Shown here: piece after piece, positions 3,344 to 10,508 of the stretch
Position numbering within the stretch: the first letter of the stretch is position 1
Layout: every line of letters starts with the position of its first letter
Origin: an uncultured Bacteroidota bacterium
GTDB lineage: Bacteria > Bacteroidota > Bacteroidia > Bacteroidales > GWA2-32-17
Length of the DNA: 64,000 nucleotides
Direction of reading: 5' to 3'
Assembly (NCBI GenBank): GCA_903837285.1
Contig: CAILUD010000100.1
Span: 1 to 64,000 of the forward strand
Notes under the pieces: model-generated
The model's database searches: none
What the model was told of the DNA's origin: nothing
Seen by the model: only the letters and a program-made list of their open reading frames with translations
Translations under genes and position numbers: made by a program

Positions 3344-4687
3344 TTACTTCCCTGGTGATTTAAAACTATATTTTTTAATTTTATTGTATAGTGTTACTCT
3401 GTCAACCTGCAATGCTTTCGCTGATCTTGAGATATTCCAATCATATTTTAAAAGAATCTGGTATATGTGATTTTTTTCCTGTTCGTCGAGACTTTCTAAT
3501 GAAGAATTAATAATATTTTTTTCTAGAGGAAAATCTTTTAAAGTTATTTTCTTTCCATTTCCAATAACGATAGCACGTTCTATCATATTTTCAAGTTCGC
3601 GAATATTACCAGGAAAATCAAATTCTTCCAATCTTTTTAATGCAGATGAATCAATTGGAATAATTTGCTTATTCATTGATGTACAATATTTTTTAATAAA
3701 GTATTCAGTAAGCAACGGTATGTCACCAATTCTTTCTCTTAATGGTGGAACATGAATGTTAACAACGTTCAAGCGGTAATACAAATCTTCGCGGAATGTT
3801 CCATCTTCTACCATTTGTTTTAAATTCCTGTTTGTAGCACAAATGACTCTGAAATCTGAATATATTTCCTTGTTTCCACCAACGCGCATAAATGTTTTTG
3901 ATTCTAAAACTCGAAGTAACTCTACCTGCATTTTAACAGATACAGTAGCAATTTCATCAAGAAATATTGTTCCGCTATCTGCCATTTCAAATCGTCCTTT
4001 TCTGTTATACATGGCACCTGTAAATGCACCTTTTTCGTGACCGAATAACTCGCTTTCCAATAAACTTTCGGTAAGAGCACCACAATGTACACTAACTAAC
4101 GGAAAATATTTTCTTGGAGAATTTGAGTGTATTGCTTTTGCTATTAATTCCTTACCAGTTCCGCTTTCCCCGGTAATAATAACAGATGAATTTGATTGAG
4201 AAACACTTTCAACTTTCTGAAGAACTTTTTTCATTGCTTCGCTGTTGCCAATAATATCTTCAACATTTTCTAATGTTACAACTCTTTCTTTAAGGCTTTC
4301 ATTTTCATGTGCTAATGAAATTTGCTTCGAAGCATTTCTTATTAGATGAGATAAGTCATCGGGATCGAAAGGTTTTGTAACATAATCAAAAGCACCGTCT
4401 TTTAACGCCTGAACAGCAGTGTCTACAGTTGCAAATGCTGTAATAACAATTACAATTGAATCTTTTTTTAATGATTTAATTCTTCTAAGCATTTCCAAAC
4501 CATCCATGCCTGGCATTTTAATATCTGCTAGAATAATATCAAAATTTTGTGATTCAAGTTTTGATAATGCAATTTTCGCATTTTCTGCACATTCAACGCG
4601 ATAGCCGTCTTCTATAAACCAGCTATAAAGAGATTCTCTTACTGATTCTTCATCGTCGACTATTAATATTGAAATTTTTTTACTCAT
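3344..4687 (-). CDS. Sigma-54-dependent NtrC-family response regulator
   Basis: The domain order is complete: a receiver domain at 1-125 with acidic pair Asp11/Asp12, phosphoacceptor Asp55 (ILADIKMPG) and Lys105; an AAA+ domain at about 145-370 with Walker A GESGTGKE (173-180) and the sigma-54 contact loop GAFTGA (220-225); and a Fis-type HTH at about 400-441 (SRSAKALQVDRVTLYNKIKK). It should remodel sigma-54 RNA polymerase when phosphorylated. Its start overlaps the end of the sensor kinase gene by four bases, so the two are co-translated partners. The most likely target is the H-like/HybA/HybB gene set directly upstream, which has a sigma-54-like element at 10311-10325. That target assignment is inferred. 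Confidence 0.95.
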   Translation of the reverse strand: MSKKISILIVDDEESVRESLYSWFIEDGYRVECAENAKIALSKLESQNFDIILADIKMPGMDGLEMLRRIKSLKKDSIVIVITAFATVDTAVQALKDGAFDYVTKPFDPDDLSHLIRNASKQISLAHENESLKERVVTLENVEDIIGNSEAMKKVLQKVESVSQSNSSVIITGESGTGKELIAKAIHSNSPRKYFPLVSVHCGALTESLLESELFGHEKGAFTGAMYNRKGRFEMADSGTIFLDEIATVSVKMQVELLRVLESKTFMRVGGNKEIYSDFRVICATNRNLKQMVEDGTFREDLYYRLNVVNIHVPPLRERIGDIPLLTEYFIKKYCTSMNKQIIPIDSSALKRLEEFDFPGNIRELENMIERAIVIGNGKKITLKDFPLEKNIINSSLESLDEQEKNHIYQILLKYDWNISRSAKALQVDRVTLYNKIKKYSFKSPGK

Positions 4688-6360
4688 TGTTTATTTTCTT
4701 TAATTTCATTTTTAACAGGAAGTGTTATTGATATAGTTGTTCCTTTTCCAATCTCCGATTTTACGCTAATTTTACCTTCATGGCTTTGCACAATTCCATG
4801 AACTATTGCCAACCCTAAACCTGTTCCTCTTGCATTTTGTTTTGTTGAGAAGAATGGCTCAAATATATGTGTAACGTCATCGTCGGCTATGCCTGAACCA
4901 TTATCAATAAAGTCTATTGTTATATGTTTATCATCGGAATTATAAGTTTTAAATATTATCTCACCGTTATCAGTAACAGCCTCTGAAGCATTAACTAAAA
5001 CTGCAATACATACCTGCTTTATTTGATTTGAATTACAATAAACAATATCATTCTTTGCCGAGAAATCGGTTATGAAAATAAGCTTTGCAATTTTCATTGA
5101 ATGATTCATTAGTTCGCTTGTTTCCTGCAAAACATCGTGCAAATGTTTATCTTCAAAAAAGTTTTGATCTTTTCTTGAGAAATCTAATAACCCTTTAACA
5201 ATATCGCCACAGCGTTTAGTTTCATTTTCAATCATTTTTAAATGCTTTAAAATCGACTCCTTTTTAATGGGTTCTAAATCTTGTGTTACTAGCTGTTTGT
5301 GAACTAATTTTGTGTAAATTAATATTCCAGACAGTGGATTATTTATTTCATGAGCAACAGAAAGTGACAGTTTTCCTAACGATGCAATTCTTTCAATATT
5401 TATTAGTTCATTCTGTGCTTGTCCTAATTCCTCGGATTTTTTTCGAACTTTATATTCTAACTGTTGCGACCAGTTTTGCAATTCGTTATTTGCTGCCTGC
5501 AAATTATCTAGCATATCATTAAACGCAACAGAAACCATTCTCATATCATCAAGCTGATCTGGTTTTATTTCTAATCTGGTATTTCTGTCTCCTTTAGAAA
5601 CAGCATCGCTAGCTTTTATTAAATCATTTAAGGGATTCTTAATTCTTTTTGTTGTAAAAAAGATTAAAAATCCTAGTAATAACAGAGTAGTTAAAGTTGC
5701 CAAAATGTAAAAATCCCTTGATGATTCTTCCATCGTTTCATCCAAATCTTTCAAAGGAATTTTAATAACAAGGGAGCCCAGTATTTTTTCGGTTTCTGGA
5801 TGGGCATGACATGTACTTGTATAACATGATTTTTGATTATAGATTGGCGAATTAATTAATAAATGCCTTTCGGCATTGTCATTTTGATTCATTTCGCATT
5901 CGCTATTTACTTCAATAATTTTATAAAAATTATCTTTTTCGGGCAACACTGATTTTATACTTGAATGACAATCCAAACAATTTGGATTGCTATGTCCAAC
6001 AGTGCCTTTAGAAAATGACGAATATGCAAGATTTTCTTTATTATCATACAAATTCACATCATCAATACCCGACATTCGATTAATAACATCTAGCATGTTT
6101 TGTAGAGTACTTTTATTGTTTTCAAGCATTGATTGGTATAAAGCACTTCCAACTAATAAAGCAGCATTTGTACCACGTTGCCGGATAATACTTCTCATGT
6201 ATTCTTCATTAACAGATCTGAAGATTATTCCAAATGAAACAAATAAAAATATTGATAAAATGGTTATAATATATACTACACGAGTGTATATCGAAGATCT
6301 GAATTTTACATATTTTTTGAGTAATGGACTTTGAAAAATATTTTTCATGCTTAAAGCCAT
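4684..6360 (-). CDS. Membrane sensor histidine kinase with two c-type-haem-like motifs
   Basis: 558 residues. TM1 lies at about 28-47 and TM2 at about 217-236, enclosing an extracytoplasmic sensor of ~170 residues. HAMP follows at about 236-290, then HisKA with His337 (SVAHEINNPL), then HATPase_c ending with FEPFFSTKQNARGTGLGLAI. The sensor holds CLDCH (Cys128-His132), a CX2CH haem c motif, and CYTSTCH (Cys179-His185), a CX4CH variant with a further His187. Sensors of this kind are known to bind haem covalently and report redox state or small ligands. Haem attachment here is inference. It is paired with the sigma-54 regulator by a four-base overlap. A 211-bp palindrome-rich gap separates it from the upstream operon, so it probably also has its own promoter. 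Confidence 0.92.
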   Translation of the reverse strand: MALSMKNIFQSPLLKKYVKFRSSIYTRVVYIITILSIFLFVSFGIIFRSVNEEYMRSIIRQRGTNAALLVGSALYQSMLENNKSTLQNMLDVINRMSGIDDVNLYDNKENLAYSSFSKGTVGHSNPNCLDCHSSIKSVLPEKDNFYKIIEVNSECEMNQNDNAERHLLINSPIYNQKSCYTSTCHAHPETEKILGSLVIKIPLKDLDETMEESSRDFYILATLTTLLLLGFLIFFTTKRIKNPLNDLIKASDAVSKGDRNTRLEIKPDQLDDMRMVSVAFNDMLDNLQAANNELQNWSQQLEYKVRKKSEELGQAQNELINIERIASLGKLSLSVAHEINNPLSGILIYTKLVHKQLVTQDLEPIKKESILKHLKMIENETKRCGDIVKGLLDFSRKDQNFFEDKHLHDVLQETSELMNHSMKIAKLIFITDFSAKNDIVYCNSNQIKQVCIAVLVNASEAVTDNGEIIFKTYNSDDKHITIDFIDNGSGIADDDVTHIFEPFFSTKQNARGTGLGLAIVHGIVQSHEGKISVKSEIGKGTTISITLPVKNEIKENKQ

Positions 6361-6571: not shown

Positions 6572-7285
6572 TTATATATTCAGAAATTTGTCCTGAAAAT
6601 CATGCCAAACGACATTAGGTTGCTCAGAAAGTGGAAAATCAACTAATTCACCACCGTCCTGAAGTACCACTAAAGATGGGTCATTTGAATATTTCTTTAC
6701 AGTTTGAGCTAAAAAATCTTTAACTCTTTGCAATTCAATTTTTGTCCAGTTTGTAGAATCTTCGGCTATATAACAGGATTGTGTTTCTTCAACCCATTTT
6801 GCCGGTTTAATTTTATATATCCAACCTTTACCATACGGATCATTATTTAATAATTCGGGAGTTTCGTTAAGTTGCATATTTGCCTGTAATACCTTACCAG
6901 AAATAGGTGAAAATATTTTTAATATTTTATCCCCCTTTTGTAATTCTGTTAACAAATCACCTTTACTAATTATTTCTCCAGATTCTTTAAGTTTTGTTAC
7001 ATTCACCTCTCCAATTGTATGAATAAGAAAATCATCTAACCCTATTGAGGCTGTTCCTGATTTTTCCATATGTGCCCATGTATGATTTTTAGAATGAAAA
7101 ACACCTTGCGGAATTTTTAAAATATCAATAGAAAATATATTTAAAACTTTATTTATTTTGTCTTTTATTGCTCCACGCTTGTTTAACATTATCCAAAAAG
7201 GAATAAGAACAATAAAAAAAGTTATGATTGCTATATATTCAATTCCCTTGGTTTCGAAGATATTTGAATAATTAAAACCTTCCAT
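6572..7285 (-). CDS. Membrane-anchored glycine-cleavage-H-like (lipoyl-domain-like) protein 2
   Basis: 237 residues. One membrane segment lies at about 16-35, followed by KRGAIKDK, which predicts a cytoplasmic C-terminal domain. Residues ~60-165 follow the GcvH fold pattern: HTWAHMEKSGTASIGLDDFL, SKGDLLTEL, KIFSPISGKVLQAN and NNDPYGKGWIYKIKP. The lysine nearest the lipoylation position is Lys120, five residues before SPISG, whereas canonical GcvH has six, so lipoylation is uncertain. About 60 further residues carry VVLQDGGELVD and end DFQDKFLN, an extension absent from GcvH but shared with the paralogue at 9430-10161. Canonical GcvH is ~126 residues and soluble, so this is not the glycine-cleavage carrier. 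It lies 51 bp after the NrfD-like gene in the same orientation. Confidence 0.8.
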   Translation of the reverse strand: MEGFNYSNIFETKGIEYIAIITFFIVLIPFWIMLNKRGAIKDKINKVLNIFSIDILKIPQGVFHSKNHTWAHMEKSGTASIGLDDFLIHTIGEVNVTKLKESGEIISKGDLLTELQKGDKILKIFSPISGKVLQANMQLNETPELLNNDPYGKGWIYKIKPAKWVEETQSCYIAEDSTNWTKIELQRVKDFLAQTVKKYSNDPSLVVLQDGGELVDFPLSEQPNVVWHDFQDKFLNI

Positions 7286-7336: not shown

Positions 7337-8566
7337 TTATTTTTCATCTTTTACCCATTCTGGTGAGTCGCTAAGCACTGGCATTCTATTTATTACCCAC
7401 CTGAATATCCATATTTCAGTAAAAATAACAGTTAATGTAACCACTATCTCCATCCACGATGGGATATAACTTACAGCTGCATCCCAGCGAAAACCAATAA
7501 CAGTTACATTTAATCTGTTTAAAATAATTCCAAGCATCGTTAAAATAGCTGCAAACTTCACTGTAAAAATGCTGTTTTTCTTGTAGCCATAAACAAATAG
7601 CATCATTGGAAGTAGAACGAATCCGACCATCTCTATTAAATACCAATACCCCATTGGAGTATTTAACAAATCCCATCTTTTGCCATGAATAAATACAAGT
7701 AATTGTAAAAAGAAATACGCAAACATTGCACCCGCACATATTTTAGCTAAACCAATTACAATTCCTTTTTGTGCCCAATGATTTTTTTTACTTATTTGTT
7801 TTGAAAACACTTTATGGCTTATTGACCCCTCGAATATAACCATAGAAAGACCTGCAAAAATGCTGGAAACAAAAAACAAAATAGGAATAAACTCGGAATA
7901 CCATAAAGGATGAATTTTATCTTTTGCCATTAAATATAATGCCCCTAACCCTGATTGATGAAGAGTGGATAATGTTATACCAAAAATTACAGCAGCAATT
8001 GTCATTCCTGAAAGAATTTTTCGTGCACGTTTTGCACCTAGCCATTCTGCAACAGCAGGAGAAAACTCGATTAACTGAGCAATCATATATAATAAGAAAT
8101 GCCATGCAACCAGAAATAAAACAGAACTTGTTCCAAAACTATTTCCAATTATTGGGTTAACAACGTTCCATGGACGGCCTAAATCTAAAAGCAAAGCTCC
8201 TGCATAAAATACATAAGCCAGAAATCCATTTAATACTGTTACTCTTACTATTGAATGATATTTATGCATGTTCAGAATATAAACCATAAACGTTAAAACA
8301 TAAGCACCGCCAGCAAAAGCAACACCTGTTACTACATCAAATCCAATCCATAATCCCCATGGAACTTCCTGTGTTAAATTAGTAACAGCACCAATGCCAT
8401 TAATAAAACGAATAACAATTAATACTACTCCCAATAAAATTACTGGAATAGAAATAATATTAAATGGAGTAAAAAACTTCCCCTTTGGTTTAAGTTCGCT
8501 AAGAATAAACTTAAAAGTTGATTCTTCCTTTTTATCTTTAGATATAGGTATAGCTGGATTATTCAT
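7337..8566 (-). CDS. NrfD/HybB-type integral membrane quinone-interacting subunit
   Basis: A polytopic membrane protein of the NrfD/PsrC family, closest by eye to HybB of hydrogenase-2. It has about ten hydrophobic segments and the family signature around TQEVPWGLWIGFDVVTGVAF, LLLDLGRPWNVVNPI and WYSEFIPILFF. Family members pass electrons between a periplasmic iron-sulphur subunit and the menaquinone pool and may move protons. I chose ATG 8566 (MNNPAIPIS). It overlaps the HybA-like stop by eight bases (ATGAATAA), which fits translational coupling. The frame opens at 8608, but that would overlap by 50 bases. Partners in the operon are the Tat-exported ferredoxin upstream and the H-like proteins on both sides. 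Confidence 0.9.
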   Translation of the reverse strand: MNNPAIPISKDKKEESTFKFILSELKPKGKFFTPFNIISIPVILLGVVLIVIRFINGIGAVTNLTQEVPWGLWIGFDVVTGVAFAGGAYVLTFMVYILNMHKYHSIVRVTVLNGFLAYVFYAGALLLDLGRPWNVVNPIIGNSFGTSSVLFLVAWHFLLYMIAQLIEFSPAVAEWLGAKRARKILSGMTIAAVIFGITLSTLHQSGLGALYLMAKDKIHPLWYSEFIPILFFVSSIFAGLSMVIFEGSISHKVFSKQISKKNHWAQKGIVIGLAKICAGAMFAYFFLQLLVFIHGKRWDLLNTPMGYWYLIEMVGFVLLPMMLFVYGYKKNSIFTVKFAAILTMLGIILNRLNVTVIGFRWDAAVSYIPSWMEIVVTLTVIFTEIWIFRWVINRMPVLSDSPEWVKDEK

Positions 8567-9425
8567 TTTCTTCGGTTTTATCGTTTTTCTTCTTTTTAGT
8601 TGCTTCATAAATTCCTAATAATAGTGGAGGTAACAAAACAAAAACAGAAGGCACACTAAATAAAAATCCTTTAGATAATTCGGGATATGATTCGTTTTGA
8701 AGCTTTGTGTTAAGCCCTAATTCATTAAACGGAACTGATGAAAGATACAGAAAACCTGTACCACCTGCAGTATGTTCTCCATAAATTTCATCAACATAAA
8801 CATCTTTTCCTTCAACAATTCTTTTTCTTGCTTCAGTTATTAATTCGCGACGTGTGCCAAATTTAATAGCTTCTGCGGGACAATTTTCAGCACATGCAGG
8901 AATTCCACCTTTTATGATTTTATCGTAACACATTGTACATTTTTGAATCTTTGGATTTGAACTGTGATATTCAAATTTTGGGACATCGAACGGACATGAA
9001 ACCATGCAGTAGCGACATCCCATACATTTATCGCCATTCCATGTTACAGGACCTTCCTTTGTTTTACACATTGCCTGAGTTAAACAAGCTGCAGCACATG
9101 CCGGTTCGTTGCAATGCATGCATTGTGTTTTAATAAATAACTCTCCTTTTGTTGTTTTGTAACAATTTACAACTGTGCGATGATTTTCATCTGTTTTTCT
9201 TAAAACTCCGGGTTTTAGTTCGCCTATAGGTGCGGGTAATCCATTTGTTTCTGCACAAATGGTTTCGCAGGTCTGACAGCCTACACATAGTGTTGAATCA
9301 TAAAGAATACCCCGAAATTCTACATCACTGTCTTTTTCCTTTTCTGCGCCAAGAGTATCAAGAGCAAGTAAAGTAATTCCAGCAACTCCGGCAGTTCTAA
9401 AAAAGTCTCTACGATTTAAACCCAT
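8559..9425 (-). CDS. HybA-like Tat-exported ferredoxin with four [4Fe-4S] sites
   Basis: The N-terminus is a twin-arginine signal (NRRDFFRTAGVAGITLLAL), so the folded protein is exported. Cysteine groups follow the DmsB/HybA pattern: CVGCQTCETIC; CMHCNEPACAAAC; CMGCRYCMVSC; and CTMC with a later CAENC. That is enough for four [4Fe-4S] clusters. A hydrophobic segment near the C-terminus (SVPSVFVLLPPLLLGIYEA) should anchor it in the membrane, as in HybA. It would relay electrons between a redox partner and the NrfD-like subunit. The usual partners (hydrogenase HybO/HybC, or a molybdopterin subunit) are not encoded nearby. It starts four bases after the H-like gene stop. Confidence 0.92.
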   Translation of the reverse strand: MGLNRRDFFRTAGVAGITLLALDTLGAEKEKDSDVEFRGILYDSTLCVGCQTCETICAETNGLPAPIGELKPGVLRKTDENHRTVVNCYKTTKGELFIKTQCMHCNEPACAAACLTQAMCKTKEGPVTWNGDKCMGCRYCMVSCPFDVPKFEYHSSNPKIQKCTMCYDKIIKGGIPACAENCPAEAIKFGTRRELITEARKRIVEGKDVYVDEIYGEHTAGGTGFLYLSSVPFNELGLNTKLQNESYPELSKGFLFSVPSVFVLLPPLLLGIYEATKKKKNDKTEENE

Positions 9426-9429
9426 AATA

Positions 9430-10161
9430 TTAAATATTTATTATTGTAAATGTAGAGTCGGATTTCCCAAAATCATATTTTGAAGTATTCATAAACTTAA
9501 TCTGAAACTCTTCCCATACTTCTGGGCCTAAATCTTCAAGCAAGTTATCTTTAAGTTCTCCACCATCTTGCAATACAGGCATTAATTCTTCATTTCCTGG
9601 CTGTGAAACAATTGACAAAAAATCCTTTAACCTTGTAAATTCATTTTTTAACCAGTCTTTATATTTATCAGCCATAATTAGAAATTGCGAATCCCTTAAC
9701 CAGTTTGTAGGCTCAATAAGATATACCCATCCATCATTATACGGCGACAGATTGACTGTTGCGGGATTTTTTACAAGTTGAATGTTATGAGAGGTTATAG
9801 TTCCTGAAATAGGAGAATTAATAGTCAATTGTTTTCCAAATCTGATAATAGTTAATATTGGTTCTCCTTTTTGAATTTGTTCACCAATATTCCTCATTTT
9901 AACTCTACTTAAAGCTCCTGTTACATGCAACAAAAAATCATCAATCCCTATTTTTACTTCACCATTTTTTTCCATATAAGCCCAGGTGTGAGTTTTGTCA
10001 AAATAAAGACCTTTAGGAATAGAAATAGAAGCTTCATTTAAAATTTGATTATGAACTTCAGTTGTGGTAGAAGCTTTTGATTTTTCACGCCTGCTGTATC
10101 GAACTATGGCATCTATTGTAAAGCACAACACAACAAATGCTACTAAAATTAAAATTAACAT
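9430..10161 (-). CDS. Membrane-anchored glycine-cleavage-H-like (lipoyl-domain-like) protein 1
   Basis: 243 residues. A membrane segment at 1-18 is followed by RYSRREKSK, predicting a cytoplasmic domain. The H-like domain (about 50-155) shows HTWAYMEKNGEVKIGIDDFL, TINSPISGTITSHN and NLSPYNDGWVYLIEP. Lys110 is the candidate lipoyl lysine and aligns with Lys120 of the paralogue. As there, spacing to SPISG is one residue shorter than in GcvH. The C-terminal extension carries LMPVLQDGGELKD and EEFQIKFMN. The two paralogues flank the HybA/HybB-like pair, which suggests both belong to one membrane complex. A role as a swinging-arm redox or acyl carrier at the inner face is inference. Confidence 0.8.
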   Translation of the reverse strand: MLILILVAFVVLCFTIDAIVRYSRREKSKASTTTEVHNQILNEASISIPKGLYFDKTHTWAYMEKNGEVKIGIDDFLLHVTGALSRVKMRNIGEQIQKGEPILTIIRFGKQLTINSPISGTITSHNIQLVKNPATVNLSPYNDGWVYLIEPTNWLRDSQFLIMADKYKDWLKNEFTRLKDFLSIVSQPGNEELMPVLQDGGELKDNLLEDLGPEVWEEFQIKFMNTSKYDFGKSDSTFTIINI

Positions 10162-10173
10162 GATTTCTGTGTT

Positions 10174-10272
10174 TTAAAATTTATTTAAAATACTTTTATT
10201 TCTACTGTGTTGTCTGATTGCATCTACTACTACAATCATCAAAACAAATGCTATTAACAATAAGATTAACAT
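10174..10272 (-). CDS. 32-residue membrane peptide resembling the H-like protein 1 anchor
   Basis: A short ORF from ATG 10272 to TAA 10174 ends 12 bases before the start of the H-like gene. The peptide begins MLILLLIAFVLMIVVVDAI and ends with a basic tail, RQHSRNKSILNKF. It matches the anchor of the next protein (MLILILVAFVVL...DAIVRYSRREKSK) in length, order of hydrophobic residues and charged tail, and the DNA is also similar. It is therefore either a small single-span subunit or a remnant of a duplicated anchor. The intact frame, the immediate operon position and its place as first gene after the sigma-54-like element favour a real gene. Confidence 0.6.
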   Translation of the reverse strand: MLILLLIAFVLMIVVVDAIRQHSRNKSILNKF

Positions 10273-10310: not shown

Positions 10311-10325
10311 CCAATTATAATACCA
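10311..10325 (-). promoter_or_regulatory. Candidate sigma-54 promoter of the H-like/HybAB-like operon
   Basis: On the minus strand the bases read TGGTATTATAATTGG. This places GG ten bases before a second GG, close to the sigma-54 pattern TGG-N9-TTGC, with G for C in the last position of the -12 element. Transcription would start about 25-30 bases before the ATG at 10272. Support comes from the sigma-54-type activator encoded in the same cluster. Confidence 0.4.
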
Positions 10326-10406: not shown

Positions 10407-10508
10407 AATTTTTCAACACTCAGCATTGTGAATCAATCTATGTCGTTATCAATAAGATTGATATATGACATGTTGAATTTGTTTACATATGATGTATTTT
10501 TCAACATT
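10407..10508. promoter_or_regulatory. TTCAACA motifs, possible upstream activator sites
   Basis: TTTTTCAACACT lies at 10409-10420, and ATGTTGAA (10470-10477) and TTCAACAT (10500-10507) form a widely spaced inverted pair. The same motif, in reverse, is AGTGTTGAAAAT at 6409-6420 upstream of the sensor kinase. They sit about 80-200 bp upstream of the sigma-54-like element, the normal distance for NtrC-type sites. No other gene is visible in the gene-free stretch 10273-10645. Confidence 0.4.

Follow-up and report, generated by a model that had tools for sequence, protein, structure and literature searches.

Genes and features at the locus

The window, by which we mean the whole stretch of 64,000 nucleotides analysed, carries on its minus strand an electron-transfer/sensing operon of an uncultured Bacteroidales bacterium, which opens with a short open reading frame (sORF) and continues with H1, an HmcB/HybA-like gene, an HmcC/NrfD-like gene, H2, a histidine kinase and an NtrC-type regulator. 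The sORF reads without interruption from ATG to TAA (10272..10174, minus strand) and encodes 32 residues, MLILLLIAFVLMIVVVDAIRQHSRNKSILNKF, comprising a single hydrophobic stretch and a basic C-terminal tail. A spacer of 12 bp (10162..10173, minus strand) lies between its stop and the ATG of H1 at 10161; an earlier note on this DNA had described both the intact frame and this distance correctly. H1 (9430..10161, minus strand; 243 residues) is a GcvH-like protein (Pfam GCV_H, 1.8e-21) with an N-terminal membrane anchor. Its AlphaFold2 model, built on a 12-row alignment with a mean pLDDT of 72, has a helix over residues 2-30 followed by the GcvH fold, and comparison of the model with structures matched those of GcvH (best E-value 1.1e-11).

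The next two genes encode an HmcB/HybA-like 4Fe-4S protein (8559..9425, minus strand) and an HmcC/HybB-like membrane protein of the NrfD family (7337..8608, minus strand; Pfam NrfD, 7e-12). Their model scores are high (303.8 bits with NF045715 and 405.2 bits with NF045714), yet both are below the curated cut-offs of 420 and 550. The N-terminus of the HmcB/HybA-like protein is twin-arginine-like by eye, with Pfam TAT_signal scoring under its cut-off. The HmcC-like gene is followed by H2 (6572..7285, minus strand), which is likewise GcvH-like and has a hydrophobic anchor at its N-terminus, then by a histidine kinase that has a HAMP domain and, found by eye, CxxCH and Cx4CH motifs (4684..6360, minus strand), and by a response regulator recognised by eye as NtrC-type (3344..4687, minus strand). 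In both H1 and H2 the position aligned with the canonical lipoyl column of the GcvH of the same genome is Gly or Asp, not Lys, and a Lys follows immediately after it in each. In H1 this is Lys110, which is invariant in 12 of 12 H1 rows and lies where a predicted hairpin has its tip. In one relative, G048 (L080, 3118-6995), two genes sized like the kinase and the regulator come directly after H1, the first of them beginning like the kinase, and there is no room between for HmcB/HmcC-like genes or H2.

Upstream, 53 nt before the sORF ATG, lies a sigma54-type -24/-12 element, TGGTA-N6-TTG (10312..10325, minus strand); the pattern TGGYA-N6-TTG occurs five times in the window, counting both strands together. 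Further upstream are TGTTGAA/TTCAACA repeats (10412..10506, minus strand), where the NtrC-type regulator of the operon may bind. Of 13 genomes checked, 12 have one or more such words in the 500 nt upstream of H1.

The sORF resembles the anchor of the next protein

The sORF peptide aligns with the N-terminus of H1 over residues 1-26, with 13 of 26 positions identical and 21 of 26 positive (BLASTP, E 2e-7 as a single comparison), so that the likeness reported in the earlier note extends over 26 residues and not 29. When the peptide was compared with the proteins of its own genome, the only other match at E<=10 was again the H1 anchor (E 0.0038). The sORF thus shows what marks a small protein derived by anchor duplication, namely a homologous N-terminus in the gene downstream. 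Relative to the GcvH-like proteins (PF01597) at large, the sORF copies the N-terminal helix of the membrane-anchored H1 but is without the entire GcvH domain.

Among the ORFs compared, such an arrangement is peculiar to H1. Of 43 mechanically called large ORFs (at least 120 aa) in the window, H1 alone has an ORF mimicking its N-terminus within 400 nt upstream. The same analysis of 531 ORFs from 87 loci returned only the H1 genes of three congeners; these ORFs are redundant, as the loci overlap, and each frame was simply taken to begin at its first start codon, which means that mimics of genes whose true start lies later would be missed. Among 3000 composition-matched random upstream regions of 373 nt, none contained an ATG-initiated ORF of at least 25 aa as hydrophobic as the sORF. 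The sORF is not a chance ORF.

Distribution among relatives

We searched for H1 in 99 chosen relatives, 393 genomes of the order, 395 genomes of the class, four families and GTDB contigs; the sets of 99, 393 and 395 genomes overlap and each includes the genome of the window. The order yielded 48 positives of 393 at 1e-40, the class 3 of 395 at 1e-60, two of these being additional H1 genomes with long frames of the fused type, and the GTDB contigs gave 15 H1 loci. Of 46 non-identical H1 rows, 13 start with the anchor; in the other 33 the frame continues upstream for another 148-373 codons. In both long-frame rows that were scanned (L036, 5005-6687, and L037, 561-2273; 560 and 570 aa) H1 stands behind a PBP_like_2 (periplasmic-binding-protein) domain, with the anchor in mid-protein. 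The genome of the window has a stand-alone PBP_like_2 protein (L074, C130:26475-27422) that is 28% identical to the first 314 residues of the fused protein, and which may or may not be its split-off partner.

The region upstream of an unfused H1 was examined in 14 genomes (G000, which is that of the window, G001, G002, G004, G177, L034 (=G778), G359, G214, G160, G048, G115, G285, G166 and G780). Three of them, all belonging to the window's genus, have an anchor-like sORF, and 11 are without one. The ortholog in G001 has 33 aa and occupies the same place with the same 12-nt spacing as the 32-aa sORF of G000, and its frame is kept across a 3-nt indel. An ORF of 30-35 residues, for which the earlier note had proposed to look in relatives, is thus found at this position in G001, and no frame disruption was seen in this one close relative available. 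G002 has two 32-aa copies before the gene H1a and a further anchor-only copy, of 67 aa, in front of another H1 gene, H1b; H1a and H1b are a whole-gene tandem duplication (L077, 1150-2795) in which the H1b anchor is lengthened. G004, a fourth congener carrying H1, has no sORF, and in G003, whose assembly is 74% complete, no H1 was found. The searches found no further congeners with the module, and four other families with unfused H1 yielded one new genome, G780.

Origin by duplication of the H1 5' end

The position of the sigma54-type element is informative about how the sORF came to stand where it does. The element is found upstream in all 14 genomes with unfused H1, and in those lacking a sORF it lies 50-68 nt ahead of H1. 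The three genomes with a sORF have it at 164, 168 and 252 nt from the H1 start, and thus at 53, 54 and 52 nt from the start of their first sORF. The distance from the element to the first ATG is therefore kept from the sORF and not from H1, which indicates that the sORF took the place of the first cistron and that a cistron was inserted.

The sequence of G002 points the same way. It contains tandem repeats, one with a 100-bp unit present 2.8 times and one with a 205-bp unit present twice, and each unit contains a Shine-Dalgarno region and an anchor. Because the repeat unit holds the Shine-Dalgarno region, the last codons of each sORF serve as that of the next gene: the AAGGAG of the next gene lies inside the last codons of the sORF, and the distance from stop to H1 start is 1 nt. 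No direct repeats of at least 18 nt (exact-seeded) are left in the window or in G001. Taken together, the sequences give good support to an origin of the sORF by tandem duplication of the H1 5'UTR and anchor, the source being the first 28 codons of H1 (10078..10161, minus strand). Of the proposal in the earlier note that the sORF is a separate small subunit derived by duplication of the anchor, the duplication is borne out by the G002 repeats and by the distance from promoter to first ATG.

On an H1 tree of 21 rows, four of them with a sORF, at least two changes are needed on well-supported branches, which two gains would explain most simply, without being proved by this. In their first 60 nt, the copies of G002 are 75, 80 and 92% identical to their own H1 genes as against 52-62% to the G000 and G001 copies. 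This would be expected if the duplications were separate, and later homogenisation in G002 predicts the same. Most simply, then, the five anchor-only copies in three species would derive from two or three separate duplications.

Two other histories were considered and set aside. Had the sORF and the H1 anchor recently undergone gene conversion, lineage-specific homogenisation would be expected. None is seen, since the G000 copy (S0) is 68% and 68% identical to the two H1 anchors, and the G001 copy (S1) 80% and 80% (60 nt). The sORF might also be the remnant of an N-terminal fusion such as distant relatives have; it begins like an unfused H1, however, and has a similar 5'UTR, which fits 5' duplication better.

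The same repeats make it conceivable that nothing beyond duplication needs explaining: the locus would duplicate easily at its repeated A-rich/Shine-Dalgarno sequence, and the copies would idle and then decay. The patchy distribution (3 of 14) fits such a course, as do dN/dS values near 0.65-1.2 (0.8-1.2 for the G002 copies against their own H1 genes). What counts against idle copies is chiefly the comparison of G000 with G001, where the copies keep frame and hydrophobicity at 72% DNA identity, when the DNA upstream is at 57% and shuffled sequence at 50%. All five copies are also open, including the 67-aa one with its 36 differences from H1b; this is a weak point, as that frame stayed open in 13% of neutral trials when the copy took all 36 changes and in 34% when it took half. 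On balance, we regard the idling of the copies as unlikely.

Conservation and selection

We compared the two orthologous copies, S0 and S1, to examine what has been retained. The sORF is identical at 71 of 99 nucleotides (72%), the H1 anchor at 60 of 84 (71%) and the H1 linker at 38 of 66. The upstream intergenic region matches at 208 of 367 aligned positions (57%) with 137 gap columns, which is little above background, as shuffled controls aligned likewise gave 50% (sd 2, highest 54%) for the intergenic region and 51% (sd 6) for the sORF; the last 100 nt of the intergenic region, promoter included, are 62% identical. In neutral simulations with 28 changes (20,000 trials), an open frame whose hydrophobicity matched or exceeded that of the other copy survived in 0.645% of trials from S0 and 0.025% from S1. 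With 14 changes and a hydrophobicity threshold of 3.0, an open hydrophobic frame was kept in 18%.

By the NG86 method the sORF has a pS of 0.375 (7 of 18.7 sites) and a pN of 0.272 (21 of 77.3 sites). The dN/dS that the earlier note had proposed as a check is thus about 0.65 on few sites and cannot be called clearly lower than 1; within the first 23 codons pN (0.267) is the larger of the two, pS being 0.237. Constraint at the level of the protein is weak. Synonymous sites are more conserved in the sORF than in H1 (pS 0.375 against 0.64, binomial p 0.015), which points to constraint that is at least partly on the DNA or RNA.

The columns of the anchor speak in part for the peptide. Asp17 is present in 13 of 13 H1 anchors and in 4 of 4 short copies, and Phe9 and Leu4 are each present in 12 of 13 anchors and again in all four short copies; against the peptide, Cys13 is found in 9 of 13 anchors and 0 of 4 short copies (the counts out of 13 were made before G780 joined the set). 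S0 and S1 agree at 5 of 6 conserved and 6 of 19 variable anchor columns in a hand-made table (Fisher p 0.039), and second codon positions appear spared, with 1 of 13 changes in codons 1-19, counted by eye (p 0.039), and 5 of 28 over the whole ORF (p 0.057); these p-values are from small samples, uncorrected, and in part from tables built by hand after the sequences had been seen. We conclude that something in the sORF has been retained, peptide and nucleic acid not being cleanly separable by these data.

If it is the nucleic acid that matters, then the sORF could be a translational leader whose peptide is irrelevant, with ribosomes that stop just before H1 keeping its start open and raising its translation. 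The short distances from stop to start (12 nt in G000 and G001, 1 nt in G002, where AAGGAG falls within the sORF end) suit such a role, as do the conserved synonymous sites. There is a precedent in mgtQ, a short ORF that, according to PMC8092293, promotes translation of the next gene in Salmonella by way of stem-loops and ribosome-destabilising acidic residues. Like the sORF, mgtQ lies upstream of a membrane-protein gene; unlike mgtQ with its stem-loops, the sORF resembles the next protein and has no significant RNA structure around it. The 193-nt leader is no more folded than 200 shuffles (z -0.34), leaving little structure to open, although leaders that act by simple coupling need none. A pure leader would also have no need of copies that stay strongly hydrophobic and keep Asp17 in all four short examples. 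We consider a leader function rather unlikely. It would predict much of the same evidence as a separate subunit, and for this reason, with 11 of 14 genomes lacking the ORF and dN/dS not clearly below 1, that second part of the earlier proposal fares less well than the duplication.

Relationship to HmcD

The company of the sORF raises the question of whether it is a divergent HmcD, the small hydrophobic Hmc subunit, relocated to the front of the operon. The sORF is hydrophobic and shares one operon with genes whose best scores are with the HmcB and HmcC models (both under the model cut-offs), and PMC10924467 describes the HmcD of the Desulfovibrio Hmc complex as a hydrophobic peptide. Both are thus small hydrophobic peptide genes beside HmcB- and HmcC-like genes. 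However, hmcD comes after hmcC, according to the gene table of PMC4162548, whereas the sORF leads its operon, derives from the anchor of a GcvH-like gene and is without a match to the HmcD model (NF045712, cut-off 34 bits) at E<=1. Even at E<=10 the model matched no H1 anchor or sORF in the window's genome and 29 relatives, 3 of these 30 genomes having a sORF.

In the window's genome, the only match to the HmcD model at E<=10 was the H2 anchor (7175-7255; 13.2 bits), which directly follows the HmcC-like gene. Weak matches at this place recur in 14 of the 29 relatives, being the best or tied best HmcD match of the genome in 11 of these 14; with E-values from 0.002 to about 1, none at the cut-off, and matches in 10 of 14 control genomes as well, it is the recurrent position alone that is telling, the positions having been paired by eye with those of the H1 searches. 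As the matches recur on the H2 anchor and never on the sORF or H1 anchor, the HmcD-like helix is more likely to be the H2 anchor. We thus reject HmcD as the identity of the sORF, which stands first in the operon and does not match the HmcD model in these searches, the gene after the HmcC-like one being H2; the reading is left with a very low probability.

Discussion

The explanation that we favour over a leader and over idle copies, tentatively and with somewhat less than even confidence, is that the sORF is a translated accessory helix consisting of the anchor only. It would be transcribed as the first cistron behind the conserved sigma54-type element, where it lies, and would probably be translated into a single-span membrane peptide with its N-terminus outside and its basic tail inside. 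Since the sORF keeps the best-conserved positions of the H1 anchor, Asp17, Phe9 and Leu4, the peptide would most likely bind at the site of the H1 anchor, whether on H1 itself, on the NrfD-type subunit or on the histidine kinase. Of these, the kinase is no less plausible than the NrfD-type subunit, given that in G048 no HmcB/HmcC-like genes or H2 stand between H1 and the gene that begins like the kinase. Bound there, the peptide may serve as a companion or spacer made of the anchor alone and so determine how many GcvH-like domains the complex carries. A broader version, in which the genus repeatedly sheds anchor-only copies of H1 that would rival the full-length subunit or act as padding beside it and thereby determine the stoichiometry of carriers, as a convergent dominant-negative or spacer microprotein, seems to us quite doubtful.

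In the open-licence literature searched, we found no description of a GcvH/NrfD/histidine-kinase module or of such an anchor-duplicate peptide. If the sORF is not translated, then it shows with what ease duplications of a 5' end yield convincing small ORFs. If it is translated, then it would be a clear example of how a membrane microprotein can arise when part of a neighbouring gene, its anchor, is duplicated in tandem, and intermediate stages of this can still be seen in the congener G002. It would also suggest that Bacteroidota have a membrane-anchored GcvH/NrfD/histidine-kinase module in which the stoichiometry of helices matters.
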